A stretch of DNA of 64,000 bases from Salminus brasiliensis. Its lineage: Eukaryota > Chordata > Actinopteri > Characiformes > Bryconidae. Location of the stretch: assembly GCF_030463535.1 (NCBI RefSeq), contig NC_132896.1, positions 26,597,709-26,661,708 of the forward strand. Reading direction: 5' to 3'. How positions within the stretch are numbered: the first letter of the stretch is position 1; the number at the start of each line of letters is the position of its first letter. The notes under the pieces were generated by a model. It ran no database searches. It saw only the letters and a list, made by a program, of their open reading frames with translations, and was not told the origin of the DNA. The translations under genes were made by a program, and so were the position numbers. Of this stretch, positions 152-62,146 are shown piece after piece.

Positions 152-3100
152 ATGGGTGAGTAAATCCAGGTTGATCATTGGCTTATTTGGTTCAGGGGGG
201 CTTTGAGCTTTTTTTGAGCTTTACTGGAGGCAAAGTTTTTAAGTTATTTGTGGATACTCTGACTTTGCTGCTGGTCTACCTTTGTCTGCAGGATTGTCTG
301 TGTAGACTCTGTTTGGAACATTTGGTAATAAACTAACCATAAGTCTGTCTCCTCTAACGCTGTGATCAGGCTGGCATAGTAAGCTGTGAACCTTTATATA
401 CTGGGGAAAGTTCTCCTCAGTAAGTTTCTATGGGCCTTTAAACTCACTTTGCAGCCTAGCATATCCTGAAAAGTGGCCTAAAGGTTATTTCAGTATTATT
501 TTGTAGTTTTACTGTGATTATTTTACTTGATTATGATTGTACAGAGTGTTTCTTCCCACTAGGTATAAATATTGCCCACAATCCACATTAATTTTCTTCC
601 ATCCCTAAATAAGCTACTAATAAATTCACTGTAAAATGCATAGTATGTAGTCTGAATGAATTTACCTGTTTGTCTGTGAGTGAAATAGCTGGAAAAATCC
701 ATTATTGTCATGTGATATTAACTGCCTATTCAAACAAAGCCTCTTGTTCATGTTGATATCCTGAAGTTTCAACTGAATCCCCATGTCAAGTGGCGCACGG
801 ACCTGCCGTTGGTCCTGCATCCTGGGAAGGCTGGCATCTTCCCACGCCTCCTCCACCCAGTCTTCCATCTCTCCTGCAGTCACGAGCCAGCTCCCCAACC
901 CCCCCACAAACCTAAAATCAGCTTTCAAAAGTGGATGTGTTTGTGGCCGAGATGGCTGTGGCCTTTTGTTTGCTTGACATTGCTTGCCCTTGTGTCCCCG
1001 AGCTGCTCCAAGACAAAGCCCATTGTCAGCGAAGCCACAAAAGGAGACACTCTCCCTCAGCACCTCGGTCCTCCCTCTTTTCTCACACTCTCGCACTCCC
1101 AGTCTGCTCCGTCTTCCACACGCCGCACGGTGGAGAAATCCCCACTAGCCTCTTTCCTCTCTGCTGAGCGCTTTTATGGCCCCAGCTGGATGTTTAAATT
1201 GGCACTGTGTCGTCTGTGATGGAATCCGGCAGTGTTGTGCCCTGGGCACGTGTATACAGTCAATGAGATGCAGTCATTGAGTTCTGTTATTATTAATAGT
1301 ACTCTGCATTAGATACGGTTCTAAATCCATTCATGTAAAGCAAGTGTTGGTGATTGAGGGTCCCTGGAAGACAAAGACTTGACGAAGACAATAACAAACT
1401 TGTATTATGTCATTTATCCAGGCTAAGAACCATTGAGGCACTCAAATCAATGATCAGTTTCAGTTACTGTGGTTCTATAGAGAACCACTGCATTTGCTGA
1501 AGTACCTTTAATAACATTGCCCCTTTTAGGGGTGTAGCATATTTTTTTTTGGGTGTAACTCCTTCATTAAATTTGGTTTGTCTCTAGACCATGAGCACAG
1601 AAAGTCTTCAGGCTACTTCACAACAGTTTAATGATGTATGATCAGTGAGTGTTAGATTTTGAGACAAAAGGAATGTTTTGCCACCTGTAGTTACATGACA
1701 TTTCCTTTGGGACTGCCAATTAACCCACCCATACGTACATTAGGAGAGTACTGGCTTATCACATGTCTCCACCGATACATGCAAATCCAGCCACTGCCTC
1801 TTTTTGAGCTACCGCCGCCATTGCGTCATTGTCGGGCAGCCAACACACTCAGAGGAAAGTGCCTAGTCCCCAGCTCCACCACACCAGCCATCAGTTGACG
1901 TCTGTGCTGGCCAACATTGCTTTAAGACTGATGAGGGGAGAGAGCGCTATCCACCCACCCGGAGAGCGTGGCCAATTGTGCTCTCTCGGACTCTGGACAA
2001 AGATGGCAAAGCGTCATGGCTCGGTATTTGAACTTGCGACCCCCAGGCCATAGTTGTAGTGCATTAGACGTTGAGCCACTCTGAGCGAAATTTGATTGAT
2101 TTTCTAAGTAAAACTAACCTCATAAAAGCTCTGCGGAGAGCGATGTCACCCAAATACCAAAACCAAATACTAAATCAGAATTTCAAAGATTCTTCTTTTC
2201 ACTCAGATTTATACTAATAATCTAATCTGTAATGAAAACTTTGTATTCAATTAGAAAAGAATGCAAATCATTTCTTTTTACTAGCGGTCTCAGACTTTTG
2301 GACCTCACTCGATTGATGTGCTTTTCCCCTTTGCTGTTGATTTCAAGGAACATGATGGATGATCCCCCTTTTCTAAGGGATGTCTTGTTTGAGTATTTTT
2401 GTAGCTTCAGAAGGTTTAAAGTATTGTGCGAAGTCTTTGTGTGTTGAATTGAGAGGCCTGTATTGAACTGTGTTATGGGACTCCGTACATGAGCCTATCC
2501 TCTGCCAGCTGTAACTTAGTCAGGCTTTGGTTTATCTGTGTCCAATGACCAGTAAATATGTGAAAAACCTTTGATCAACAGAGCCTTTGTGTGAGAACTG
2601 TGAGGCAATGTACCTCCCCTGCTGCAACAGGAAATTCGATACATTTTTCAAACTTTCTTCATAACTTCATCATTAAGCTGAAAATCGTGTCATTCAGAGT
2701 GGTTTGATATGAAGTGCTCTACTCCTCACATAGTCTGAGTTGTTCACAGTGGTGGGGATAGAAACCAGTCTGAAGTGTTTAATGCCTCTACTCAGAAAGC
2801 TATCGCAAAAATAGACTTCCAAATAAACTACCTGAGCCTGAGACATCATTTTATATTGCTTTTGAGACAGTGTTGGCCTAAAACCTTTTTCAGATAACTA
2901 TTTTCCTTCATCAACATTACATATTGTTGTGTCATGTGGGTATATGCAATGATGACACCTTTGCAAGAATTCAGCTTTAAATGGAATAAAATTATTTTGT
3001 TCCAAGTCATTATATATAATTTCTGTTCTATTTATTATGGTTTATTTACAATGTAAAGAACAGCTGTCAGATTCAAATGATGGCAAAGTAAAAAATGATA

Positions 3101-6100
3101 ATGGCTATATACAATTGTGTAGGTTCACTTGTGGTTCTGGATAGTAAATAAAATATGTTCCATACAAACATAATACGAGCAATCTGGATGCCATCACCAC
3201 AACTGTAAAGACGTATCGGTCAGATGCACCATTTCAAAAATGGCTATAAATGCTGTGATGATTTGACACAATTTTTAAGTTACCATCAGTTAAGGTAATC
3301 TTAACATTAGCGTGCTTTTGCTAATAGCAAATGAAATCGCTACACTATATATATATATATATATATATAGTGGTGGTTTCCAGCATTCACTCACCATAAG
3401 TGGTGTTGGCATGTTCAATCAAACTATTCCTTTAAAGAGTTGCACTTGTTATATATTGTTACACATTACAAAAGCCCGGCCACTTGTTTTAAAATGGGAG
3501 TTCTCGTAACGCTCAATATGATCTTGTTTTACGAACAATATCCCGCCCTCCTGTGCAAGTACAGTAGCCAGAACAAGCTTTTTTTTTGTGCATTTTTTTT
3601 TTTTTGCTACAAAAAGTTCATGAGTTGCTTTTCCAGATTTTATCAGTCACTTAAATTAATAATAAAGAATATGTGTTTGAAATGGCTAACCTTCAGTTTC
3701 CAGTAATTTGGTCTCTCTCCGTTCATAGAGATAGAAGCCTGGATTTGTGTGACTGACAATAACTGCCAGCCAGCATTGCAAAGACGGCAGCTGAGTAAAC
3801 CAACTTGCTTTATAGGGACTTTGGTAAAAACCAATGCAAATGTACAAAGCTAGCCAGATAAAAGGCATTAGCGTAGTCACATTATCCATGAAATGTTTGA
3901 CTGACGGTTTTGACGGTCATACACTCTTAAAAAATAAAGGTGCCATAAATGGTTATTTATAAACCATTATTTAATTTGGCTTACTTCATTGAGTCGAATA
4001 AACCCAGGTCAATTGCTTGTTACCACATGAAGTCTTTTTATTTATTTATTTATTTTTAACAGTTTAGAAGAACCACTTTTGGATCCATAAAGAATTCTGA
4101 TTGCATCGGTAATGTGTGAGTGTGTAAATGTTCTTTACCAGTTTAAAGGTTCTTCACATTCTGTTGCAAACATGGTTCCTAATGGAACCAAAAGTGCTTT
4201 GTTTTTGGCAAAGAAACATTTGTAGCACCTTTTTTTTGCTGAGTGTAGTAGAAAGTAGGCCTCTCGCCTCCACAGTGTCAGAGCATGAGCAGACAGCACA
4301 ACCGCGACGTACTTCAATCCATATTTCCCCAGAGTTCCTCATTAAGACTCTGGCGTAGGAAAGCAAAGTGTTTATGAAGATGACAGAACTAACAAAGTGC
4401 TAGTCGATGATGATGGTTTTGGTGGTGATGATTATGATTATGATGATGACAAACCTGCTGTGCCTTGCAGGTTGCTACGAGTGCTGCATGCGTTGTCTGG
4501 GAGGGGTGCCCTACATCTCCCTGGTGGCCACTCTCCTCTGTTTCTCTGGCATTGCGCTGTTCTGTGGCTGCGGACACCAGGCACTGACCGAGACCGAGAG
4601 GCTAATTGAGAACTATTTTGCCCGCAACCTGCAAGACTACATCACCCTGGCCTACCTGTGAGTGTCTGTATTAACCGCCTGCATATTGCCTAAAGAGTAC
4701 AAAAACCCCTCCTCTAACTCTGACAGACCACTTTAGTGTTAAGAGTCTGAAAGCATAGTGTTCTATTCGTCTGATTGTGAACGACTACCCAGCTATACGA
4801 AACTGATCCATTATCAGCAATTTCGAGACACTAGACGCAAAAACTCGATATTGTCACTGTAGTGTCAAAATGAAAGGGCACTTTACAGGAAAAGGAAGAA
4901 ATCACAGCGATTAGGGTCATTTTGGACCTGTTCTGCTGGTCCTTTACTCATTAAATGTTCACGCAATGTAAAGGATAACTGAGATTTTTGAGGGGTAGGA
5001 CAAATTGAGTTAAGCGATGGTGTTATAACAGTGACAATGTCTCTCCCTCTCTTTCAGTATTGAGTATTTCCAGTACATAATCTATGGCCTGGCCACCTTC
5101 TTCTTCCTCTACTGCATTGCGCTGCTGGCTGAGGGCTTTTACACAACCAGTGCGGCGAGGCAGACGTTTGGGGAGTTCAGGAGCACAGTGTGCGGCCGCT
5201 GTCTCAGCACATCGGTGAGGGCTTTGTGTGTGTAAATGTTTGTTTTCTAATACCACAGGTAGCACACTTTTTAATAGAATGAGTGTTTGAATGATATTAA
5301 TGTTGAGTGGTCTACAATGTCCAAAACAATGGCATGAAAAGAAACTACATACAACAGCGTGATAAGGGAGAAATGAGTGAAACAGGCTCTACATATTATG
5401 CAGGTGGTGTCATAAAAATGTGCCATACAGTACAGTGTAAAGGTTTTAGGCACCTGTGAATTAAATTGCTCCTTATCTGAGCAGTAAGTGTTTATTTGGT
5501 CAGCAAAACACTCATATTAGAATGAACACAAATAACATTAATAGGAAAAGTGGTGGTTTTATGTCACAGTGTTTAATGAAACATCTCCACTGCTCCCCTC
5601 ATGGTAGTCTAGCATTATTTATAATTAACATTCAACACCTGGTTTGCTAAATCAGTGCTTAATGAAGTTAAATCAGACGAGCTGGGAACGGAATTGAAAC
5701 ACCCCCGCTTGGTGGGGACATCCCGGACGTATCTGGAACAAACTTGCTTGTTTTGTTACTTGTATTAACTTGTTAATTGTTGTTACTTCTGATCTGTATT
5801 TATGCTTACTTTCATTTGTCCTAATGTAAAGAAACTCTCTCATTGCAGAAATAAATCATTTTTATTGTGTTTAGGTGCCTAAAACTTAGGCAGAGTACTG
5901 TTCATCCAGCAAATATCATAGAACATGTTCACATTGTGTTTCATTTAATTTTTTTATTTTTTAGCTATGATATTAAAAAACGGGCCTTCTCTCAGGACTG
6001 TCTCAGCTTTCTAATGCACTACCACTACGGCCCAGGGGTCACAAGTTTAAATCCTGACCATGCCGTTCTGCCATCACCGGCAGGAGTCCGAGAGGGCACA

Positions 6101-9100
6101 ATTGATCGTGCTCTCTCCAGGTGGGTAGATGGCTCACTCTAAAAGCGATGGCAAAGGCGCCTGTTAGCTGGTGCGGTGGAGCTGGGGACCCGGCGCCTTG
6201 CTCTGAGCGTGTCAGCTGCCTAGCAGTTCGCTAAAAGGTGGTTGCTGGCTTTGCATGTATCGGAACAAATGTGTTCAGTCCTTACCTTCCTAGTGTTGGA
6301 AGCGTTGCTCATACTAGGCGGAGTTACAAACAGGTGGGATAATTGGGGAGACAAAAGGTGAAAATTTGATTGATAAATTAATAAATAAATAAATAAATAA
6401 ATAAATAAAGGAAGTAGCATTTACTCCTACGGCTTTGAGTAGTTTTTTCACCAAAATCTTCATATGTCAAGCCTGGTCTGCTACCCATATTCTATCAGCA
6501 AGGTCACTCCACAGCGGTATATGGGGATCATTTGTTGTACCTTGGGGGCCACATCTGCTTTACTTTTAGGGAACATCTAAAATACTAATCCTTTTTACAG
6601 GTCATTGTGATTTCCTATTTTTGGAAAAGCTAATTTTCTGTTTTTTGCTCAGTAATATTTGAGAAAAGAAGCGGCGAGTCAGATCTTCCAATTTACCCTT
6701 TGACATTTACTTTTTTAACGGGGCATCAACATTACTCGCATGTCCCTTTTCATTCACAGTTCATTGTGATCACGTATTTCCTGGCTGTCGTTTGGCTCCT
6801 GGTGTTCGCCTTGTCAGCACTTCCCGTCTACTTCTTTTACAACATGGCCACCACCTGCCATACCATCAACGTCCTCTCTGAGACGCCCTCCAGCATCAAC
6901 CAGCTGTGTGTCGATGCCAGGCAGTATGGTAATGAACTCTCACTTGAATCTTTTAATATCTTTATTGCACCTGTTTTGCCTCCTGTCGCAGCCGGAATTT
7001 GATTTGGGGCCCCTTGTAACACTGATTAAAATTCCAAGGTTGTGTCTTTTTTTTTTTTTTTTTTTTGTGCTGCTGTAATGGACGGTAAATGAGGCCATTA
7101 CTAGGAAATGGGCCATGAGTGGGGGAGTTATGTAGTCTTGATAAATAAGCCTTATTCTGAATATTTGAGACTCTACACAGAAAAATCCCTTATGGTGGGG
7201 AATTTGAACGTTAACCTAAAATGCTTTTGCTGATGGAAACATTGTAGTGCAATTTACGTTTACTGCACTAAAATGTGCGTTCATTTCTTTATTTATGTAT
7301 TTCTTGTATAAATTGACAATTTGTTTTTACTGTATTACTATTTTTAATACATATTTTCACTTGTAGTAGAGAGGTCATATCAGTACCGATGATATTGGTA
7401 TTGGGCTAATATTAGTAGAAAAGGTTGCATCTGATTTATTTTTAGAAAAAGTTATGTGGTGATGTTGATGTTCTGTCCTGTGAGGTTTTTTAGTAGTGTG
7501 AGGCTGATGGCTTTCTTTTAGACACTAGTTTTTAAAGGAAGTGCATCAGTGAAACAGCTCATTTTAAGGCTTGGTAGTTTCAAAATAAAAAGTGAAAAAC
7601 AAACATCCAGTATGCCTGGGGCCGGATTCACAAATGGTTTTCAAAGAAAACTTCAGAAAGATTACTCAAATTACGTATTTACCTTTTTTTTTGGGGGGGG
7701 GGGGGGGGACTTATGAACAATATAGCAGTGGAACCTATGAACAAAGTATGGATTATTTTCAATAAAATCTTAAATATGTTGTTATTTATGGTATAAGAGA
7801 GTTAGATTTTATTTTTATCTTTAACGGCATTTTTACGAGACTAAACTGCTGTGGGGTAGGATGTGTAAATACACTATTTTTGTGACCCCACAAACAACGC
7901 AGTTATAACGGGTTGTTAAAAAAGGTTTTGAAGCACCAAAACATCAGATTGGTTTACCTCCTTAAACCCTGTACATAGACCCACCCTTCAGTTCTTCACT
8001 CTTAAAACTGTGGTACTCTCATAATTAACATCAGTTTCATAGACCTAAACTGAACCTTGTGGGACTTCACAGAATATGCTAAACCAGGCTGTTTAGCATA
8101 GATTCTTAACAAGTTCATTTCCAAGAATAAAGTGTTTTAGGCTTTTTCTTAAGTATGAAGATACACAGGTGCACACACATATGAAAGCTAAGATCTTGGT
8201 AGCTTTTTTAATGCACTGACATTCGTTTGGGAAAGCTGTGTCATAGTTATGTTGTTATTCTTGTCACCGAGGCAGAAAAAAAAGGCTCAAAGACTTCTTG
8301 CTTCCTTTAGGTTTACTCCCATGGAACGCAGTGCCGGGGAAAGCTTGTGGGATGACCCTGTCCAACGTGTGCAAAACAAGGGAGGTAAGTCGTGCCTCCG
8401 GGTGTAGTGTGTTTCCACATCTCTCGTTCTGTGTCTCTCTCTCTCTCTTTGTGTCTCTGTGATTCCTCTGAGAGACAGCCTCAAAGGCTAGCCAGAGATG
8501 GAACTTACATCAAACGGTAACTCTGTGCCTTGGGGCATCACAGCTCTGACTTTGTGGATTCTGTCCTTCTTCGCAGTTTTTCCTGACCTATGATCTCTAC
8601 ATCGCCGCCTTCGCCGGAGCCGGGATCACGTTATTGGCTCTGGTGAGTACGAGGCCCAACAATGTAGCCAGAACGCAGCACACAATCAGTCATGTGTCCC
8701 AGTGACGCCATGCAGCGGCTGTAGGTGTGAAAGAATTCAAACCCTCCATTAGTTATGAGCTCAGCTTCAGAGCGACTCCAGTTACTGTAAAAACGGCTTT
8801 TAAATGCAAATTTGCAAAAACAGTTTGTGCCATTTCAGGCCTGAGCGAGAATGTCATGATGACATGATGATGTCTGCATGTGACTCAGTATTGACCACAA
8901 AAGAGTTTTTCTTCCTCTTTAAAGACACCTGGCTTTAGTTTTTGCAGAGGTACTGACTAAATACAGCATGCAGCTCATTTAAGAACATTAAAAAAAAATA
9001 ATAATAATGTTTTAATTAATATCTTTTTAACACTATTTTTGAAACCACTGTAGCTTATGCTACTAAGATTATACTAAGGATTCTTACTATGTATGACTAA

Positions 9101-9718
9101 TCAATGAGCAAATGACTATAATTTGATATTATTTTAAAGACCCTTATTTCATTATGATATGTATTTCTATGACCTCCACCTATGATGTTTCTATGCTTTT
9201 CTAACCTCTCCATCATCTAGAATTAGACTGGGGAAGGGGGGGGGGTAAATGTTCTGTATAGGCAAACTGCTGTTGGCTGAATTGGCAGAAATATGTAAAT
9301 TAACTTGTCTTTGTGCCATCAAAAAAACTTAAGAATTTGAGAGGTTTAGTTTTTATATCCAGGTGTGAACAATAATGCTTTGAAACTTTCACAATGTTTA
9401 GACACTCCAACAAGCCCTTATTTCAAAAAAAGGAGGGAAATTCAATTTTGCATAATAAATAATAAATGTTGTGCTTATGCTTATTAATGGAATTCCTCCC
9501 AGCCCGATGTTACTCTGATAAATCTTAACAAACAGAAATATCCTAAATAATTTTTTTCTGCCTGTTTTTAGTGCTGTTATAATAAAGCTGACTCTCTTGG
9601 CTTGTGTTCCCTTTTCTGTCTCCCTTTCTCTCTTTAGCTCACTTATGTGGTCTCCACTACCTATAATTTTGCCGTGCTGCGCTATCTAGGGAGGAAAGGC
9701 TTAGCTCCACGGTGTTAG
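152..9718 (+). CDS. plp1: Myelin proteolipid protein, DM20-type (PLP/M6 family)
   Basis: Four-pass myelin membrane proteolipid. Coding exons are 152-155, 4471-4657, 5058-5214, 6760-6928, 8311-8384, 8577-8642 and 9638-9718, giving 738 nt or 245 aa. All have GT/AG borders and continuous phase. As in mammalian PLP1, exon 1 encodes only Met plus the first base of Gly2, and internal exons of 187, 157, 169, 74 and 66 nt equal PLP1/DM20 lengths. Visible features are the N-terminal Cys cluster (C3, C6, C7, C10; palmitoylated sites in the family), the ALFCGCGH motif after TM1, the AEGFYTT motif after TM2, a third hydrophobic span about 118-145, four Cys in the large extracellular loop (TTC, QLC, KAC, NVC) and TM4 about 204-233. 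The residues ERLIENYF and RKGLAPRC favour PLP1 over GPM6A/B. Teleosts often carry plp1a and plp1b; which copy this is cannot be told here. Convergent with rab9b. Confidence 0.95.
780..1230. promoter_or_regulatory. GC-richer non-repetitive block in plp1 intron 1, possible enhancer
   Basis: Within the 4.3-kb first intron this stretch is more GC-rich than its surroundings and lacks the repeat signatures seen nearby. It contains GACAAAGCCCATTGTC at 1012-1027, two inward-facing SOX-like half sites (GACAAAG and the reverse of GACAATG), and a further ACAAAAG nearby. In mammals PLP1 intron 1 holds an oligodendrocyte enhancer and SOX10 drives PLP1. The enhancer role here is inference. Several open frames overlap the block (662-1096 minus, 809-1219 plus) but none resembles a protein I know. 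Confidence 0.3.
1714..2085 (-). repeat. tRNA-derived SINE, copy 1 of a three-copy family
   Basis: Sequence shared with 5996-6352 (opposite orientation) and 28718-28985. Read on the minus strand, the right end starts with an A-box-like GTGGCTCAACGTCTAATG and a B-box-like GCAAGTTCAAATAC, as in a tRNA-derived SINE head. The common body includes CAGAGGAAAGT and the CTGCCTCTTTTTGA segment. It lies in plp1 intron 1. Confidence 0.55.
3343..3369. repeat. (AT)n microsatellite
   Basis: Uninterrupted alternating TA of about 27 bp in plp1 intron 1. Confidence 0.9.
3921..4246. mobile_element. TIR-type MITE in plp1 intron 1
   Basis: Begins ACACTCTTAAAAAATAAAGG and ends with the approximate inverse, CACCTTTTTTTTGCTGAGTGT. 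The interior holds GGTTCTTCACA and GAACCACTTTTGG segments typical of a widespread fish MITE built from 'AAAGGTTC' words. It has no coding capacity. Confidence 0.5.
5426..5901. mobile_element. TIR-type MITE in plp1 intron 3
   Basis: Left end ACAGTACAGTGTAAAGGTTT followed by TAGGCACC. Right end GGTGCCTAAAACTTAGGC followed by AGAGTACTGT. The ends form an imperfect inverted repeat about 25-30 bp long. The interior is AT-rich and non-coding. Confidence 0.55.
5996..6352 (+). repeat. tRNA-derived SINE, copy 2
   Basis: Plus-orientation copy of the family also at 1714-2085 and 28718-28985. A-box-like CTTTCTAATGCACTACC and B-box-like CAAGTTTAAATCCTG are about 25 bp apart near the left end. The body matches the reverse complement of copy 1. 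An (AAAT)n stretch follows at 6377-6408. It lies in plp1 intron 3. Confidence 0.55.
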
Positions 9719-12175
9719 ACCTCCTGTCCTGTCCTGCAATCCATGCTGTCCAGTCTGTTCCCATCAACAGTGCACTACATGGGACACTTGAAGAAATCTC
9801 TTCACCTACCTGTTCAACATCACTCCATTATCTCTTCTGGCTTGGGGAGCAATCTTTCCTTCCAAACTGACTGCTTTCAAACTGCCCAATTTATTTTTTG
9901 CCCAGCAGGTGGTGCTGTAGTTCTGAACCATTGAGCCTGTGGGGGCGAGTGGGGCACAACTGAACACGTTAGCTATTTAATGAAGATAATTCATATTTAA
10001 TATTAATATTCTTAATAGAAGCGACCTGCACATCTTGTTTACAAATGCGGGAAAAAACGTTTTTTTTCCAGAAGCAATTCAGCTGAAAGTGTTACAAGTT
10101 TAAACGTAAAACCAATAGGGTTTGTAACCAATAAATAAAAAAACAAACAAAAAAAGTGTTATTGCAACTAAATTTGATTAGTTAAAAGGGTCTGCATCCG
10201 ACCATACATTGCATCAAAATGTATTACTGGACAGTAAAACATCACATGAAATTTTACCCCGTGGCAAATACTGCTATATTTTATTTATATGGCACCTGTT
10301 CTTCAGTTTCTACTATGAATGAATGAGAAAATGAGCTTTTCTCATTGTTTATTTGCAGAGGCTCAATTGAAACACTGTATAAAAACTAACCCCATGGTGT
10401 GGAGGCTGTATTTTATCCTCTCCAGCTCTAATTATGAGTGGTTTACATGCTTCAGAATGGTGCGGCCCTACGGCCACCAAGAGGGAGCTTAAAGGTTATT
10501 GATGTGAATTTGGAATTTGCACAATTCTGGGATGGGAAAAGTCACTTTTCCTGGTACAAAACAATCTTCAAGGTGAATCTGTAGATACATATGTCCGATT
10601 GATTTCTGAACGAGAAAGTGGCCAAAAGCTTCAGTTAGATCAAGAACATAAAACACCTGTGTTACATTTTACTGTGTTAGGTTGTGCCTCACTGTCCCCT
10701 ATAAATCATGTAAAGCCACAGTTTTGTGTGATAGTGCCTTTTCTCTCTCCCCTGCTGGACAAAAACTGTTGTGAACTTTGACACTTTGCACCTAATCGTT
10801 TCCCAGTATGGTGTTAGTTAGAAGGTTTCTTTGATTTGCGTTTGATTTTCTTTTTTGTTGCTTTTATTTTATTTTTTTAATGTAATTCTTGTTCAAGGCG
10901 CTGCTGATTATACTTGTTTTGTGTTTTGCAACTCCAAATGGCATTCTTGTGTCTTTTTTGTTATTTTTTTAAACTAGTGCCTGCATCCCTTTTATAAGTG
11001 TGTGTGGGGTGTATTTTTTTTGTTTGTAAATCATCCAACATGGGTGTTAATATGTAGAGTAATTGCGTAGTTTATTAGACTGTGTGAAACATGTCCTTTA
11101 GTTAAGGATGTAAGGAATGATGAAGAATTAGACACGCCATCCAACGAGACCTAGACTAGGGTTTTATTTGGATTCTCTTCTTCTTTTTTTCCTTTTTTGC
11201 CTGGGGTGCACCAAAAACAGCTCTCTCGTGTTGCTGATGACTGGTTACTATGGTGACAGTCTTTCACATCTGGTTGCCATGGTGGCAGACAAAGCAAAAT
11301 GTGTGCCTAGTTACTGTGACCTCAGCATTTTTTTTTTCTCCTCCCTTCTTCCCCCTTTTTTTCTCACTGTCTTGAGAATAATGGAGGTGGGCCCACTTGG
11401 TGAAGGAACCAGTCAGAGGAGGGTCCTATCAAAAACCTAACACCCTTGATAGGAGTCAGGTCCAAGTGCAAAGGGAGACCCCCCCCCATCCCATGACAAA
11501 AAAGGGGGCAGAAACCTTTCAACTAGCTGGGGTACAGAGCGGGAGAAGGCCTTATTTGATGGTTGTATTCTTTGATGTGTTGTTTGTGATGCAAGGGTTT
11601 TTTGGCCGGTTCAGACTTGTGCGTAAAAAATCAGGGAGGCTTTAAGGACCTAACATTGATCGAGGCTGGAGTGTGATTTTTTTTCTTTTTTCATATATAT
11701 AATTATACAGTATAAATATTTCAGAAGGCTGTCCCTCACCTGTCATTTAGTATTACTAGAGGGTATTGGGTTGAATGGATGCTTTGGCTCCCCCTAGTGT
11801 AAGGTGAATATTCGTCTTAAATGCAAGTGTAAGCTTAGCCATCACAGAAAGCTTTTGTATTGTCCCTGTAACTATCAGGAGAGTATTTGTAGTTATTGTA
11901 TAACACCATTTTAATTGAGCTAGATATTTACTAATCATAATTTACACTTCTTATTCATCAATTTTATATTTTTTGCTACTAACAATATTTGTTGGAACCT
12001 TTTTTTAAGTGTTTGTGTATTATATGGTGAATGCTTTGTCCAACCTAGGTTGCTGTTTTTGTTTGTTTTGGGATTTTTTTGTTAGCTGGCTCTGTTGGCC
12101 GGCTCTGTAGGTTTGCTATGTTCTTTTCAGAGAGTTTGGAGGGACTTTGGTAATAAAGTGAAATAAATGCCTTTC
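9719..12175 (+). other. plp1: plp1 3' UTR (main form)
   Basis: Follows the TAG at 9716-9718. The region is AT-rich without convincing ORFs. An AATAAA at 12152-12157, closely followed by a second AATAAA and a GT-rich stretch, is the best poly(A) signal before the alternative exon at 12281. The roughly 2.4-kb length suits PLP1, whose mammalian 3' UTR is also long. Earlier signals (for example near 10132) could give shorter forms. Confidence 0.5.
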
Positions 12176-12280
12176 AGTGTTTTCCATGTGTGACGGCAGC
12201 TTCTGTAGCAGCCTGGCATCTCTGTAAAACCATCAGGGTGTGTGAAGAGGTTCTGGATAGTTTCTTTTTCTCATTAACAG

Positions 12281-12451
12281 GTTCACTGTCCTCTGCACCT
12301 AGCCACATGGCAGCTTCTGCTGAAAGACCACCGCCGCAGAGTTAAAGAGGAGAAGAGACAATACACCCTGTACGGCCACCTCATAAAAGGCCAGAGCAGC
12401 GACGTCTGCTCCCCTTATGCTCCCAACCCCAGTTGCCCAGATGAGTTATGA
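12281..12451 (+). CDS. plp1: Alternative terminal coding exon of plp1, M6-like C-terminus
   Basis: An acceptor (polypyrimidine then TCATTAACAG) precedes an open frame of 56 codons ending TGA at 12449-12451. The phase is 0, the same as the donor of plp1 exon 6 at 8642, so splicing 8642 to 12281 is in frame and would replace exon 7 to give 275 aa. The predicted tail starts VHCPLHLATWQLLLKD and continues with basic RRRVKEEKRQ. GPM6A/GPM6B have an alternative C-terminus starting IHFLMILSSNWAYLKD, then an acidic/basic stretch. The two align without a gap over 16 positions (V/I, H/H, L at positions 5-7, KD/KD). An ATTAAA at 12581 could end the transcript. Gene assignment and splicing are inference. 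The alternative is an orphan exon of an unknown gene. Confidence 0.6.
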   Translation, partial: VHCPLHLATWQLLLKDHRRRVKEEKRQYTLYGHLIKGQSSDVCSPYAPNPSCPDEL

Positions 12452-12875
12452 TTGGACATAACTCACATTTGTGTAGCTCATATGTTTGTATATTAAGTTC
12501 AAATATTAATATTCAGGCTGATGTTAATAGTTATTCAAAAGACAGGAAAATGCTTTGCTTTCAAGCTGATTATGCTGTTTATTAAATTTTTGTTGTTGGC
12601 ATTCACAGAAGTGTCCAATCTTATCCACGATGGGTGTAGGTGCAGTTTGTCATTCCGACAAAGCAGAGCTGATAAGATTGACTGTTTGATGACTGATTAA
12701 GTCAGCCACCCCTGCGTATCATATTGAACACCTGTGCATTAAAGCATCACAGTATCTCACTATGTATCTTTAGTTAGTGGAGCAATATGAAAGAGTTCTA
12801 GTAAAAAATACATGTTGGCATTCTTTCTTTCCCATTTCAAAAGATCTAGATCTCCACACAGAAGTCCAAAAACTC

Positions 12876-15800
12876 ATGGTCAGTTTCTAAGGTTTATTCA
12901 TCGCACTGGCATCGGATACTTGCAAACTGATTTGTAAACAAAAGCAGTCTTGCCCTCCTTTATTGCGCAGGGGTGAGGGGGGGATGGGATGGGAGACAGT
13001 GGGTTGGATGTTTTGAGGAGCTGCCCAGCCATTCGCAGGCATCATTTCACAACTTGAACTCAGTTCAAAGCACATCAAGCAAACACTATGCGACATCAGA
13101 GACAGCAATTTGCTACCATGTCAGTACAGCATTTGTGAATGAACAGCCAGTGCAACACATACAGCATCTGACATCAGCTCGCCAAGCCACTGCCTAAACC
13201 CGGTATTCAGGGCAGAGATGGTGGCCCCTGTAAATAACCACAGACTTGATCCTCAACGTCATCTGGAGCAAACAAAATGTGGTTTGGAACAGTAAGCGAC
13301 ACACTTCCAAAACTGAATACTGTGGAACGAGTAGAACATAATGTGCAAATGTGTGTGCATGTATGTGTACAGTAAGGTCCATAAGTATTAGAACAGCAAT
13401 TTTGCCTCTGTACTCTGCCTGGGTAGGGACTAAACTGCAGACTTTCAGCTTTTTTTCAATGGATTTTACAAAAAATACTGCATTAATCATTTAAAAATTA
13501 CAACTATTTTCACAGGCTCAAATGTAATTGGACAAATTGTAAATATAAGGAGTGTTGTTAATATTAGGAAGCTAATATCCTATGGCTGCCTGAAGTCTGC
13601 AAGCCACTGACACAACCAGATGCTGATTTAATGCTTGTCTGTGGGTCTTGGCTTGGCTTGTTGCAGCTTCAGTTAGTTAAAAGCTACTGGTTTGAGGTCA
13701 TGTCACTGGTCAGGTGACTGGCTCTGGCATTTAAGAGCTTTCAGTTCCTTTTTCCAGTATAGTTTGCGTCACTTTCCATCGATACAGTGAGGCGCCTGCT
13801 ACCTGTTTTGGAGAAGCTGACTGAATCTGAAGCTGTCACATCCTCTATAAAACACCAGTGAACCAGTTCCACTGGCAGCTATACATCCCAATGCTGTAAC
13901 ACTGCCTTCGTCATGTTTGGATTGTGAACCCTGCCTTTCTTTTTTCATATTCGAGATAAGTTTGGTTTCATCTGTTTGAAGAATTTTGCTCCAGAACATT
14001 TTTCAGATCAGATTAGTCGGACTGTTCCGTTCTTGAGTGTTACCAGGGGTTTACATCTTGAAGTTACTCTTGATTGTAGACTTCAACAATGATAAGCCAA
14101 CCTCCTTGAAAGTGTTTTTGGCTTTTTTTCCAGCAAGGAAAGAATTCTGCATTTATCTACTTTAGCTGTTTTCTTGGCATTGCTGAGCTCGCCAGTGCAT
14201 TCCTTCTTTTTATAAAAATGTACCACAATGTTGATTTTGGCAACTTCTTAAGATTTGATCTCTTTGATAGGTTTGTTTGTTTATTCAGCTCAATTCAAAC
14301 TCAATACTTGGAATCAACTCCTGACCTGACAGGACACACCAGGCCATGAGACTGCTCATCAGTCAACAGTACAATTACTTTGAACCTGTGAAAATGGAGG
14401 GACTATGTAAAAATAAAAAGGGCTGTTATTCCAAAATGGTTTATTTAATATTTGTGTCAAACTTGGTGAATAAAAACTTTAAAACACACTTAAACCACAC
14501 TTTGATAACTGCAATTCAACTCCATTGTGGTAGTGTACAGAGGCACAATTATAGAAAACTGTCTCAATGGACCTGACCTGTATACTGTATATATACAGTA
14601 ACATAACAGTGTTAATATTATCAACAGAAATATAACTTAAGCGTACCAGAACCAGATTTTAGTTTTAAAAAACAAAACAAAACAAAAAAATAATAAAAAG
14701 ACATTGCAGCCATTTAAGGTTAACAAACTCATTCAACAAGTCTAGATACTTTAAAAAAAATTTTTAACTAGACTATTTAAACATATGCAAGACCATCCAG
14801 CTTTGATTTACATGACCAGATACCTTCCTTGGAACGCAACATCTGTAACGCAACACCTGTAACACAACACCTGTAATAAAATACTGTAAAACAAGTTACA
14901 GTAAAACCAGATCAGAATCACAGTGAACACACTGTCGCAGCTTATTGTGGTACCTCAATTTAAATATACCGTCAGCAACTGGCAGTTGAATACTGCTTTC
15001 CAATACAGAGGTCAAATACCTGTATAGCTTTACATACCAAAAAGTAAACGACCCAAAGGGGGAAGCACAGTGCCTTAACTGATTCTGTTTCACAGTGAAC
15101 TATTCTCATTAAACATCAGAGTAACTGGTAATATTGTATAGGGACTGGCAAAAGGTAGCCCACATGAGGCCCACTCTAAACAAGCAACAATACAGTAGCA
15201 TATAGCGCTGTGGCAGTTACATGCAAGTGCGAGGCAGACAAACCATTTACTGGGTTAAAAGCAAAGCTTTTCAGGCTTGGAAATGAGCATATGTCAGTAA
15301 ACTTTTGAGTTGAAGGGCATCTGAGCTACATCTGTTGCTTCGTATAGGCAGCACTAGTGAATATCAAAATTCTTACCACTAAAACTGTCAGGTCAGAGGC
15401 CACAAACCGGAATAAGTGGTCAACATCTAGTATGATTAGGCTTAAAAAAACAACAAACAAAACCCCAGAAGATTCAAAGAAAAAAAAAATCCTATCAATA
15501 ATATACAACATTTTAAGTACCAAAGCTGGGTATCTTGTCAATTAAGAAACAACAGGATTGTTCACAAGTGCTTTTTAAAAGATTAGAAACCAAGTTAAAT
15601 GCAGAACACCAGGGCAAGTGTGCTTTGGTTTTTTCACATTCAGATTAGATGGAACTGAAAGAACATGAACATGAAAGTAGTGAACTTTCTTAGTTCTGAA
15701 ACAGCCAAGTAAAAGGCAGTGAAGCAATGAGGCATCTTTTTTACTGACTTCCTTAAAACAAAAATGCTGTAGTAAACACTACAGAATAAAATTAGCGCTG

Positions 15801-16683: not shown

Positions 16684-17292
16684 TCAGCAGCAGGAAGAGC
16701 GGGGAGCCTTGCGATTGCCGTGGAGGTCAATGGTGCTGCTCAGCAAGGCGTGGTCAATCTGGTCCTCGCTGGCCAGCACCTCCCTAACAGCCGCTTCGAA
16801 GGCGGCGCTCACGTTGGTGTCATCCTTGGCACTGGTCTCAAAGTACGGGCAGCAGCCATTCTCCTCGCACCACGCCCGGGCCTCATCCTCGCCCACCTCA
16901 CGGTTTTCTTTGTCCACCTTGTTTCCCAACACCACAAAGGGGAACCGCTCAGGGTCACGCACATCCGAGTAGTACATGAACTCCTTCTTCCAGCAGCCCA
17001 GATTCTGAAAGCTTTGCAGGTCATCCACAGCGAATGTGAGGAGGCAGCAGTCAGCACCACGGTAGAAGGGTGTGCGCAGGCTTTTGAAGCGCTCCTGGCC
17101 TGCCGTGTCCCAAATCTGCAGTGTGACCAGTCGCCCATCCACCTCCAGGTCACGGTTTAGGAACTCCACACCAATGGTGTGGAAGGACTGTGAGTCGAAG
17201 CGGTCCGTCACATAGCGGTTCATCAGCGAGCTCTTTCCCACACCACCATCCCCCAGGAGGATCACTTTCAGAAGGAGGCTCTTCCCACTCAT
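16684..17292 (-). CDS. rab9b: Ras-related protein Rab-9B
   Basis: Small Rab GTPase of late endosome-to-trans-Golgi transport. 202 aa in one coding exon. Motifs in order: P-loop GDGGVGKS (14-21), switch I threonine T39 in HTIGVEF, switch II DTAGQE (62-67), NKVD guanine specificity (124-127), SAK (154-156), and C-terminal Cys201-Cys202 for double prenylation. The start MSGKSLLLK is identical to mammalian RAB9. The frame stays open upstream, but an acceptor (CTTAG at 17334) lies 41 nt before the ATG, so the upstream open frame is intron. RAB9B beats RAB9A by VEFLNRDLEVDGR and LLTFAVDD. It lies tail-to-tail with plp1, as in mammals. Confidence 0.96.
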   Translation of the reverse strand: MSGKSLLLKVILLGDGGVGKSSLMNRYVTDRFDSQSFHTIGVEFLNRDLEVDGRLVTLQIWDTAGQERFKSLRTPFYRGADCCLLTFAVDDLQSFQNLGCWKKEFMYYSDVRDPERFPFVVLGNKVDKENREVGEDEARAWCEENGCCPYFETSAKDDTNVSAAFEAAVREVLASEDQIDHALLSSTIDLHGNRKAPRSSCC

Positions 17293-25645: not shown

Positions 25646-52465
<26,820 letters not shown>

Positions 52466-57092: not shown

Positions 57093-57799
57093 ATAATACT
57101 GTACTAATAATACAAATGTGGTTGTTCATAAAATAACTCTTAATACTTTATATACATGTAAAAAACCTAATGCTAAAATTACAGGTTTCAAACAACAAAT
57201 AAAACGCTGTGAGAGAGCTGTAGGTGATTACACTAACTGAGAATGCAGTATAGCATTAGGAATAAACAAAACAATATATATTTAGAAGGTTTATTTACTT
57301 TGAAAAGTTAATAATAATAATAATAATTTCATAATACTGGATCATAGTGTATTGTTTACTAATATCCATGCCATAACAGTTATCCCATTAAACTTTACAT
57401 TGTACTTTACTATCAGTTTCACGTCTCACTTTTATATAACACAGCATCAAAGTTATTAATGTGACGAGTGTTGTTGTTATTGTTCATTGCTCATTTACTT
57501 AAACTAACCTTAAAATGTTCTTAAATAATGAATTAATACAACATTCATATCCATCTTTCACATCAAATCCATATTCTCCATATTATAACAGAGTGTTACG
57601 CTCTAAAAATGCATGTTGTGTCACATCACTGCTGACAGCAGGACAGGAAAAGAACTGCTGACTGGCTCTCTGTGGACAGTGTTATTTACCTGTGGGACGA
57701 GCTGCGTTGTCACTGGCAACACAAAATACGGAGGTGTGGCTCCGACAGTGCTCTGTGAAACACACACCCATAAAGCACTAGACCGTTTCACAGCTTAGG

Positions 57800-58420
57800 T
57801 GGAGGAATAAAAGCGGTCATCCTCACCTTAGGTTGGTTGGTCAGGAACAACTCAAGAACACCAGTGTCACAGTCTACAGTCCAGCAAGTCTGCCGACTGC
57901 CTTCTTCGTAATTTAACTCTATTTTCTTCAGCATAACCTCAAACCAATCAGCTAGACAGTTGAAACTTGGACACAATGTGGGTATTCCAACTGGGCAGTA
58001 TCTCCAAACTGTATCTCTCAAAGGTGGTTTGTGGAGTGGATAAAACAGGGTAACTTTAAGCTTTCAAACAAGCCTTCCCAAAGTCCTGACCTCAATCCTA
58101 TCAAAAATATGAGAACTGTGCCTAAAGGTTGGTTCTGTGCCAGGAAACCAATACATTTAATTAAACGGTACCAACTCTGCCAGAAACAGTGGTCAAATAT
58201 CTTTTCAGATGTCTGCCTGAACTTTGTTGCTGTCTACCAAAAGCTTCTGTTCAAGTGGGCACCTTTCTGATCATTTAACCAAATATTAGGTGTGTGTATA
58301 TGTATATTTTTTTACTTGACTTTTGATATCAGAAAGAAATCACTGAAAGGCCAACATTGCCATGATATTGATGTCCATAAGTGTATGTAAACAGAGACTT
58401 TACAAATGAGGAGATCGGTC
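57800..58420 (+). pseudogene. Tc1-like transposase relic
   Basis: Plus-strand translation from 58031 gives SNKPSQSPDLNPIKNM, the third catalytic region of Tc1 transposase (usual SQSPDLNPIEN), here with Lys in place of the catalytic Glu. It continues as LCQKQWSNI. Upstream sequence is frameshifted. The right end includes TCCATAAGTGTATGTAAAC, a known Tc1 end. Confidence 0.6.
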
Positions 58421-59629
58421 ACTAGTTGAAATATGAATGGGAGTCCTGTAATGCTCAACATGGCATCTGTTTACGAAAAAACGTCCTGCCTGTCAACAAA
58501 TATAGCCAATTAGCTCGCTGGTTACACCACCCCATCGCCCAATGTGTGTACCCAGAACAAGCAGCAAAATAAGGTTTTCAAGCATTTTTTAGCCAAACGC
58601 TATAAACTATTCATGAAGTATTCAGATTTTATCAGTGATTAGAGTATTTTAGCCTCTCTGAATTAATTCATATGAATCCTGGTCTCACATGACTGGGAAA
58701 ACTGCCCAGCGGTGTTGCAAAGATGGCCATCGAGTTGACAGACTCGCCTTTAAGGATATTGATGTAAATCTCTGAACACAAGTCCAGATGCTTTGTAACT
58801 TTCACACAAATAAAGATTGGCCTCCAAACTTCCACAGGTTTTGACCCAGCATCTGCATCTCCACTCAGAGTTTCTCTGTACCTTTTCCTCTTCTGCCCTG
58901 GGCTGGACAAGCGACTGCTGTGCATTCACACTCCACCAAGCGGCCCTGTAACAGTTTCACGCCAGCTACCACCTAACCCACACCACAAACAGGTTGGACA
59001 ACCTGAGCTGATGTCTCTGAGTCACAAGCTCAGCTGCAATGTGTATCATTGTTCCAAGAACGCCAAGTATCTCATCAACATCCCCCTCTGTCACCATGCA
59101 GAGAACAGGAATGCGAATAATGTGCTGTGGGACAGGCTGAGCCGCATCAGCGTCTGTGTGGTCACTGTGATGTATTGTGATGTAGTGGAGATAAATGGGT
59201 GAAAGGATCCAGGCAGAGGTGGTGAAGGGCGTTAGCGATTGAGGGCGTGGAGTGGGAATATGCGCAGCACATTGCGCAATGCAAGCACACAGCCATAGTT
59301 TGCCCATTTCTAGAACATTCTTAACCCTTGTTTATATTCATATTCTACTTCAAATTGAGGAGACACTACATCAAGATTTAGTTCATTCTGTTTGTTATTA
59401 CTTTGTATACAGTACTTACAGCATACTACTGAAGCAGAACTTAGCACTGTGTTACAGTCAGAAACCACTTTTCATTGATTTACTTTCCATTCATTCCAGT
59501 CATTCATTCTCCACTTTTAAGGAGATTAGATAAGATGATTCACCTCCATAAAGAAGGAGAAAGTCAAGTAAATAAGCTTCAAAAACTGGGAGTTGATAGA
59601 TCTCCTAACAACCGTGCAAGACCTGAGGC

Positions 59630-60440
59630 TCAGTATTGTGTGTGGCCTCCACGTGCCTGTATGACCTCCCGACAATGCCTGAGCATGCTCCTGATGAGGA
59701 TCTCCTCCCAGACCTGGACTAAATCATCCGCCAACTCCTGGACAGTCTTTGAACCTGCTTTCATCTGTGAAGAGCACAGGGCGCCAGTGGCAAATTTGCC
59801 AATCCTGGTGTTCTCTGGCAAATGCCAAGCGTCCTGCACGGTGTTGGGCTGTGAGCACAACCCCCATCTGTGGACGTCGGGCCTTCATACCATCCGCATG
59901 GAGTCGGTTTCTAACTGCGGACACATGCACATTTGTGGCCTGCTGGAGGTCATTTTGCAGGGCTCTGGCAGTGCTCCTCCTGTTCCTCCTTGCACAAAGG
60001 CGGAGGTAGCGGTCCTGCTGCTGGGTTGTTGCCCTCCTACAGCCTCCTCCACGTCTCCTGGTGTACTAACAGACACAGCAAACCTTCTTGCCACAGCTCG
60101 CATTGATGTGCCATCCTGGATGAGCTGCACTACCTGAGTCACTTGTGTGGGTTGTAGAGTCCGTCTCATGCTACCACGAACCTTCAAAAGTGATCAAAAC
60201 ATCAGCCAGAAAGCATAGTTACTGAGAAGTGGTCTGTGGTCCCTAGCCTGCAGAACCACTCCTTTATTGAGTTTGTCTTGCTAATTGCCAATAATTCCAC
60301 CTGTTGTTTATTCCATTTGCACAACAGCATGTGAAATTGATTGTCAATCAGTGTTGCTTCCTAAGTGGACAGTTTGATTTCACAGAAGTTTGATTTACTT
60401 GGAGCTATATTGTGTTGTTTAAGTGTTCCCTTTATTTTTT
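59630..60440 (-). pseudogene. Decayed Tc1-like transposase, second lineage
   Basis: Minus-strand pieces in order: [20 protein letters not shown] (60140 region, helix-turn-helix), [33 protein letters not shown] (first catalytic Asp), then the C-terminal REVIQARGGHTQY stop at 59630. The middle, with the second Asp and Glu, is deleted and the frame is broken. The flank 60330-60440 has the CTAAGTGGACAGTTTGATTT end. A plus-strand fragment at 59530-59620 (MIHLHKEGESQVNKLQKLGV) may be the N-terminus of another relic. Confidence 0.65.
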
Positions 60441-60476
60441 TAGTATAATAGTATATATATAACAGACACATAAAGG

Positions 60477-60520
<44 letters not shown>

Positions 60521-60523
<3 letters not shown>

Positions 60524-62146
60524 TCATGCCCGAAAGTATTCATACCCCTGTCAAAGTTTGACTTAAATTTACTTTTATTTAACCAGAAATTATATTTTTG
60601 CCTGGAAATGACACAGGCATCTCCCAGGAGATAACACAATGATGTACAAGAGGCATCATTGTGGGAAAAAATATTTCTCAGCTTTTATACACATTTGAAC
60701 AAAAAGTGGCATGTCCAAAATTATTCATACCCTTCTCAATAATTAATAGAAAAGCCTTTATTGGCTATTACAGCAATCAAACGCTTCCTGTAATTGCTGA
60801 CCAGCTTTTTGCATGTCTCCACTGGTATTTTTGCCCATTCATCTTTAGTGATGAGCTCCAACTCTTTGAGGTTCGAGGGTCTCCTTGCCATCACCCTGAT
60901 CTTTAGCTCCCTCCACAGATTCTCAATTGGATTCAAGTCAGGACTCTGGCTGGGCCACTGCAAAACATTAATGTTTTTGTCTGCTAACCATTTCTTCACC
61001 ACTTTGGCTGTGTGTTTTGGGTCGTTGTCGTGCTGAAATGTCCACCGGTTCCCAAGGCCAAGTTTCTCTGCAGACTGCCTGATGTTGTTGTTGAGAATCT
61101 TGATGTATTGCTCTTTTTTCATGGTGCCATTTACTGCGATCAAGTTCCCTGGTCCATTGGCTGAAAAACACCCCAAAACATTAGGTTCCCACCACCATGT
61201 TTGACAGTGGGGATGGTGTTCTTAGGGTTGAAGGCTTCTCCTTTTTTACGCCAAATGGTGCACACATCATTGTGGCCAAACAATTCAATTTTTGTTTCAT
61301 CTGACCATAAAACAGAACACCAGAAGTCTTCTTCTTTGTCCAGATGAGCATTTGCAAAGGTCAAGCGGGCTTTTGTGTGCCTTTTCTGGAGAAGTGGTGT
61401 CCTCCTTGGCCTGCGTCCGTGGAACCCAGCAGTGTGCAGTGTCCGTTGAACTGTCTGCCTTGAGATGTCGCCACCAGCAGAGTCACCTCCACCTCCAGAT
61501 TCACCAGGATGGCCTTGGTGGTGATCCTTGGATTTTTCTTCACCTCTCTCACTATTCTCCTGGCCAGCACAGGTGTCACTTTTGGCTTCCGACCACATCT
61601 TCTGAGATTTTCCACAGTGCGGAACTTCTTGTATTTTTTAATAATACTTTGCACTGTAGCCACTGGAACTTGAAAACATTTTGATATGGCTTTATAGCCC
61701 TTTCCTGACTTGTGAGCGGCCACAATGCACAGCCGCAGGTCCTTAGTGAGCTCCTTTGTCTTAGCCATGACTGTCCACAAACCAACTGCAGAGAGCTGCT
61801 GTTTTTCTCCTGTTGAGTTGATTAAAACAGCTGTTCCCAATGAATCAGGGTAATTAGGATGCTTTAAAACAGCTTGGACTATTTGGAATGGTATAGAACT
61901 TTGGATTTTCCCATATACTGTGACAGTTTTCAAAGGGTATGAATAATTTTGGACATGCCACTTTTTGTTCAAATGTGTATAAAAGCTGAGAAATACTTTT
62001 TCCCACAATGATGCCTCTTGTACATCATTGTGTTATCTCCTGGGAGATGCCGGTGTCGTTTCAAGGCAAAAATATAACTTCTGGTTAAATAAAAGTAAAT
62101 TTAAGTCAAACTTTGCCAGGGGTATGAATACTTTCGGGCATGACTG
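60521..62146 (-). mobile_element. Nearly complete Tc1/mariner element with long TIRs
   Basis: Left end CAGTCATGCCCGAAAGTATT and right end AATACTTTCGGGCATGACTG are exact inverse copies, and the inverted repeats extend about 210 bp with few mismatches. TATA flanks both ends, as expected for insertion at TA, here within a (TA)n run (60481-60520). The length of about 1.63 kb is normal for Tc1. It carries one transposase pseudogene. Confidence 0.92.
60736..61768 (-). pseudogene. Tc1-like transposase, two frameshifts
   Basis: Start MAKTKELTKDLR at 61768. N-terminal helix-turn-helix AHKSGKGYKAISKCF and VATVQSIIKKY, a GRKPK basic motif, then a frame change near 61475-61500. ISRQTVQRTLHTAGF, WSDETKI (first Asp), MFWGVF, then a second frame change near 61165-61180. 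HDNDPKHT (second Asp), SPDLNPIENLW (Glu), stop at 60736. All three DDE residues are present and the total length (about 344 codons) is that of intact Tc1 transposases. The protein is not expressible as it stands. Confidence 0.88.

Follow-up and report, generated by a model that had tools for sequence, protein, structure and literature searches.

A candidate omega-type alternative terminal exon downstream of plp1 in Salminus brasiliensis

Results

In the window analysed here, a stretch of 64,000 nucleotides at C19:26597709-26661708 of the genome of Salminus brasiliensis, the plp1 gene is followed by a second possible terminal exon (12281..12451, + strand; 56 codons and a TGA stop), which, judging from its frame, acceptor, composition and omega similarity, is best explained with moderate confidence as a diverged alternative ending of the type found in gpm6 genes. 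The two C-termini of this family are referred to here as psi and omega, which we take to be their customary names. Myelin stability is governed by the dosage and the isoforms of PLP1, which are also a cause of human leukodystrophy; a further question is how PLP came to replace an M6-like ancestor. The sequence of the candidate exon, its frame, phase and acceptor, the order of the two endings and the similarity to omega, in register, over the first 16 codons are read directly from the DNA.

The plp1 gene on the + strand begins with the coding part of exon 1 (152..155, ATGG; donor GTGAGT, open joined frame) and continues through exons 2 (4471..4657), 3 (5058..5214), 4 (6760..6928) and 5 (8311..8384), identified by their joined translation and, for exon 2, also by the Myelin_PLP (PF01275) match of the 245-aa product. 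Exon 6 (8577..8642) ends in GCTCTG in phase 0, followed by a donor (gtgagt) that would be common to both endings. The coding part of the classical, psi-type terminal exon 7 (9638..9718) shares 30 and 32 of 48 nt with two psi exons from elsewhere in the genome; exons 1–6 encode 219 aa, and together with exon 7 they give a DM20-type PLP of 245 aa. AATAAA signals are found at 10130 and 10134 and again as a pair at 12152 and 12162 (12152..12167), the latter where the classical 3' UTR probably ends, with a presumed cleavage site nearby. Exon 6 is identical at 18 of 22 residues to the plp1-like gene on C1, at 14 of 22 to gpm6b and at 8–9 of 22 to gpm6a, a comparison confined to this exon; these identities and the rab9b neighbour identify the window gene, as far as sequence can tell, as PLP1 rather than GPM6. 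The rab9b-like frame lies at 16684-17292, convergent with plp1; the names of rab9b and of the other neighbouring genes are our assumption.

Further along the window, an exon-like unit that encodes Pro/Glu/Lys-rich peptides recurs on the - strand of 39768-46528 in at least 11 scattered copies, some of them 98-99% identical over 165-195 nt, which looks like a recently amplified array of repeated exons. At 57788-62032, ORFs on both strands resemble the remains of transposases, presumably of the Tc1/mariner type.

Structure and signals of the candidate exon

A preliminary description of this region had reported an acceptor, a 56-codon open frame in phase 0, a stop codon and an ATTAAA 130 bp further on, and all four are confirmed: a polypyrimidine tract and acceptor occupy 12261..12280, and the ATTAAA at 12581..12586 would probably serve as poly(A) signal if the alternative ending is used. 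The agreement in phase with exon 6 also holds: the candidate frame follows immediately on TTTCTTTTTCTCATTAACAG, in phase 0, and exons 1–6 joined to the candidate exon translate into 275 aa, the length that had been proposed for the isoform. The other two forward frames of 12281-12451 contain stops and, because an in-frame TAA sits inside the acceptor, the splice site is exactly where the candidate frame opens. Using a simple home-made scheme, the acceptor scores 8.1, which falls inside the range of the six plp1 acceptors (5.7-9.2) and is reached by 7 of the 4060 + strand AGs of the window, candidate counted. The length of the frame is unremarkable by itself: at least 56 open codons follow 582 of 8164 AG sites in the window, candidate counted. 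The maximal G+C segment within 11700-12900 is 12278-12440, nearly the limits of the exon.

The preliminary description had further aligned the first 16 residues without a gap with the alternative GPM6A/B C-terminus and had pointed out that both then become strongly charged. A hydrophobic start followed by charge is rare: with the candidate's own values as thresholds, 14 initial residues of this hydrophobicity followed by 14 of this charge occur at 2 of 1944 open sites (candidate counted), the other being a simple repeat. For the sequence of the charged tail no significant in-register similarity is seen. The codon-usage score is modest and gives no preference to the candidate frame, which obtains 8.06, compared to 8.28 and -10.99 for frames +1 and +2 and 7.07, 7.51 and 2.99 for the reverse frames. 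A score as high occurs in 4.5% of 7338 open stretches taken from outside the regions masked as coding (candidate masked too) and in 21% of 913 GC-matched stretches. The G+C content by codon position is 0.61/0.41/0.63, with a dip at position 2 that is as deep in 3.6% of the 7338 stretches and in 7.7% of the GC-matched ones.

Terminal exons of the gpm6 genes

Besides two plp1-like genes, the genome contains two gpm6a-like and two gpm6b-like genes. A search with the GPM6A tail gave four omega exons, which lie on C4, C19, C8 and C15 and each of which begins in phase 0 behind an acceptor; we take the C4 and C19 genes to be gpm6a and the C8 and C15 genes to be gpm6b, and the tails of GPM6A and GPM6B also served for comparison. 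Two printed peptides, DIKSKEEQELH (PMC3197635) and EEQELHDIHSTRSKER (PMC11326636), back the M6A tail used here, and the former paper also reports three such gene pairs for zebrafish.

Both of the genes read as gpm6b show exon 6, then a PLP-like psi exon and then omega downstream, all in phase 0 (C8: exon 6 end L012:6577, psi 8187, omega 9864; C15: exon 6 end L014:7624, psi 8400, omega 9810). For both genes read as gpm6a, tblastn at E below 0.05 gave no psi exon in the interval from exon 6 to omega, which was covered minus 30 bases for C19. In plp1, the psi-type ending at 9638 precedes the candidate at 12281; since the order in gpm6b is exon 6, psi, omega, a plp1 gene with both exon 7 and the candidate exon would match the gpm6b layout. 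A genome-wide query with psi gave 3 places, exon 7 of the window not among them; such searches are therefore not exhaustive, and the same caution applies to the tail of the candidate, for which the candidate itself was the only match found in its own genome (2 first-look candidates scored). As no second copy of the tail was found, an origin of the exon from a repeat was dropped.

Similarity to omega exons

Over its first 48 nt, the candidate shares 20-22 identities with each of the four omega exons (mean 21.25), compared to a mean of 11.8 (sd 2.7) for in-register comparison of the AG sites of the window, and a value of at least 21.25 is reached at 2 of 8159 AG sites, candidate counted. Over longer spans the candidate's identity is matched at 5 of 8157 sites (60 nt), 4 of 8156 (78 nt), 3 of 8154 (99 nt) and 1 of 8147 (147 nt), the candidate counted in each case. 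Values of 0.001-0.003 were obtained from codon shuffles, and none of 300 slid registers reaches the candidate's 48-nt value. Similarity to the psi exons is less than that to omega (14 and 16 of 48 nt). As a control, the classical exon 7 matches the omega exons at 16-18 of 48 nt, and part of the identity between candidate and omega may therefore be general to such exons. Codons 17-49 taken alone give an in-register p of 0.2, and shifts of 7-8 codons fit the purine-rich codons better: this may reflect a deletion, or composition alone.

At the peptide level the evidence for omega kinship is weaker than at the DNA level. The candidate is identical to the omega exons at 4-5 of 16 residues (shuffle p 0.0045) and, scored against the four omega exons, ranks fifth of 3559 open window sites, the five including the classical exon 7; against the M6A and M6B tails used for comparison it is joint third, with 4 of 3559 open sites reaching its score, itself included (shuffle p 0.002). 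With an HMM built from the four omega exons, it was absent from the best 15 of the 3559 window peptides, and in a MAFFT protein alignment the ungapped register was lost, with a long gap within the first 16 residues. The NWAY core, the DIKSKEE motif and the serine context of the M6 proteins are not kept in the candidate. Gapped DNA alignments of candidate and omega exons were set aside: these alignments wander.

We also combined acceptor, frame and omega similarity in one test that covered 143,477 bases, the window plus eight stretches from paralogues, with an acceptor at least as strong as the weakest plp1 acceptor and at least 45 open codons as cut-offs. These leave 46 of 18,674 AG sites, a count from which the gpm6 omega exons are missing owing to their position at the very edge of the stretches retrieved, and the candidate leads with a score of 14.0 vs 3.0 for the next site. 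Thus, the claim that this is a GPM6-type exon is partly supported: boundary, phase, gpm6b-like order and the first 16 codons agree with it, and codons 17-49 show no significant similarity in register. Homology to omega is weakly suggested by these comparisons, and it is the first 16 codons that carry it.

Database searches

The Myelin_PLP family matches the alternative 275-aa product with E 3.8e-92 and the classical 245-aa product with E 4e-98. Exons 1–6 alone obtain 301.7 bits, which rises to 309.3 with the first 25 candidate residues and 308.7 with the whole candidate exon, the alignment running through the candidate exon to profile position 230 of 231; the classical product obtains 328.3 and a product ending in a gpm6b omega exon 333.4. 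Three shuffles gave 302.6, 303.9 and 304.9 (gain 0.9-3.2) and two hand-picked chance peptides 307.7 and 313.1 (gain 6.0 and 11.4), the latter beating the candidate. The Pfam result is thus helpful for the candidate, not decisive.

A Pfam scan of the 56-aa tail alone returned one family below the cut-off (E 0.069), and phmmer against the PDB gave best E values of 0.18 for the tail and 0.026 for the 275-aa product; all of these are taken as chance matches. The same holds for a scan of genome contigs, in which 76 pattern matches yielded one bacterial locus (L001, uncultured Litoreibacter) matching tail residues 5-26 with 55% identity and an E of 1e-6 that is relative to the candidate stretches only. 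Among 12 pattern matches in viral contigs there was no relative, and neither contig scan contained a fish homologue. In the literature, the titles and abstract openings among the matches listed name no alternative terminal exon of a fish plp1; Werner 2001 and Moebius 2008 stand outside this comparison.

The second plp1 gene

The second plp1 gene lies on the minus strand of C1 near 28.596 Mb (C1:28596247-28596306 and flanks, L019-L022); its exons 2-7 are recognisable, exon 3 with 82% identity across 50 residues. The region reaching from its exon 6 to ~12 kb beyond holds 366 AG sites followed by 16 or more open codons, and among these no omega- or candidate-like start with a usable acceptor was listed, the classical exon 7 excepted; the nearest sites, ~11 kb away, have omega scores of 11.5 and 11.25 and poor acceptors (-11.0 and 0.6). 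The exon is thus not common to both plp1 copies. Independent loss in the C1 copy is possible, but the absence costs support. No rab9b-like match was obtained near this gene (tblastn E up to 1, 38 kb). Downstream of it, L020 carries long open repetitive stretches of the VFLLQVPLPQ type at ~160-3060.

Discussion

The explanation that we favour is that plp1 would have two mutually exclusive terminal exons. Splicing from 8642 to 9638, together with cleavage a short way past the AATAAA pair at 12152-12167, would give the 245-aa DM20-type protein. Because the likely classical signals at 12152 and 12162 precede 12281, the alternative ending needs both a skip of exon 7 and a bypass of the classical poly(A) site; exon 6 would then be joined to 12281 and the RNA would end after 12581. 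In the resulting 275-aa form, TM4 from its middle onward would be replaced, together with the cytoplasmic tail, by a brief hydrophobic segment and an extended tail, strongly basic at first, whose predicted cytoplasmic part begins KDHRRRVKEEKR. The mean hydropathy of the first 14 residues (1.03) is close to that of the classical ending (1.13) and of the M6A and M6B endings used for comparison (1.05 and 1.17), which would be enough to complete TM4 in the topology that we predict.

As to its origin, the candidate exon may derive from the omega ending that gpm6a and gpm6b carry. The ancestor of the family would have possessed psi followed by omega, of which gpm6b kept both and gpm6a is left without psi; one plp1 copy would have lost omega and the other would keep it in diverged form. 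An ancestral PLP/M6 pair of terminal exons with different losses per gene is the most economical account, although we infer the splicing, the protein, the descent and the loss history of the alternative ending alike from sequence. A more far-reaching proposal, which we put forward tentatively and hold to be rather doubtful, is that a teleost PLP1 gene still makes an M6-type isoform, the choice of terminal exon being older than the PLP/M6 split, with psi lost from gpm6a and omega from other PLP1 genes, and thereby keeps a form with a long basic tail beside the form of compact myelin. If this were true, a PLP1 with an M6-type ending would make both endings ancestral, and the function of the tail could be addressed in fish by deletion of a single exon.

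The same observations can be read in other ways. The exon could be a relic, derived from omega and no longer spliced or spliced only as noise, with its tail decaying: its absence from the plp1 paralogue, the restriction of similarity to the first 16 codons, the loss of the NWAY and DIKSKEE features and a codon score no better than that of frame +1 would all fit. Decay is harder to reconcile with a strong acceptor, an unbroken frame, an intact poly(A) signal, a G+C block near the exon limits and an intact G+C pattern over the codon positions, and we regard this reading as unlikely, though the most serious of the alternatives. Somewhat less credible still is the view that a cryptic acceptor in the plp1-rab9b interval happens to be followed by an open frame, with no kinship to omega at all. 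Open frames of this length are common after AG sites, a few other sites have similar peptide scores, the codon score does not single out the frame, the Pfam, PDB and omega-HMM scans contain nothing convincing for the tail and one chance peptide surpasses it in Pfam; against this stand the position, which is that seen in gpm6b, the candidate's DNA identity, matched at 1 other of the 8159 sites, and its omega score, found at 1 of the 46 open sites with good acceptors.

An exon belonging to another transcription unit, whether a small gene, a read-through or a non-coding RNA, in the interval where plp1 and rab9b converge would account for a location past the likely classical poly(A) signals. The frame, however, opens exactly at the acceptor and in the phase of plp1 exon 6, and no further gene was noticed between plp1 and rab9b in the ORF list: we consider this very improbable. 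A diverged omega-type terminal exon of plp1 thus remains our preferred reading.

Comparison with known systems places the candidate within the PLP/M6 family. With the classical PLP1/DM20 form the product would have exons 1–6 (219 aa) in common and would differ in the end of TM4 and the tail, at 275 vs 245 aa. In Drosophila, the M6-D form is described in the available part of the source as a C-terminal variant that arises through a frameshift and is without the last transmembrane domain, whereas here a switch of terminal exons is proposed. The omega exon of GPM6A (M6A) occupies the homologous place in its gene and encodes, like the candidate, a hydrophobic stretch ending in KD followed by a charged tail; in the GPM6A-read genes omega is the only ending found, whereas plp1 here has the psi-type ending and the candidate. 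For zebrafish M6Ab, S263 in the tail is needed for filopodia according to the available text of PMC3197635, and the membrane-tubulation activity of M6a maps to the N-terminal half according to that of PMC3230579. The M6A tail serine has no evident counterpart in the candidate tail, and hence we do not claim an M6 function for the latter. GPM6B (M6B), with its two C-termini, resembles the candidate in the exon boundary, in phase 0 and in the order of psi and then omega in both of the gpm6b-read genes: its omega exons comprise 49-50 codons compared to 56 in the candidate, which is strongly diverged and follows no clear register after the first 16 residues.
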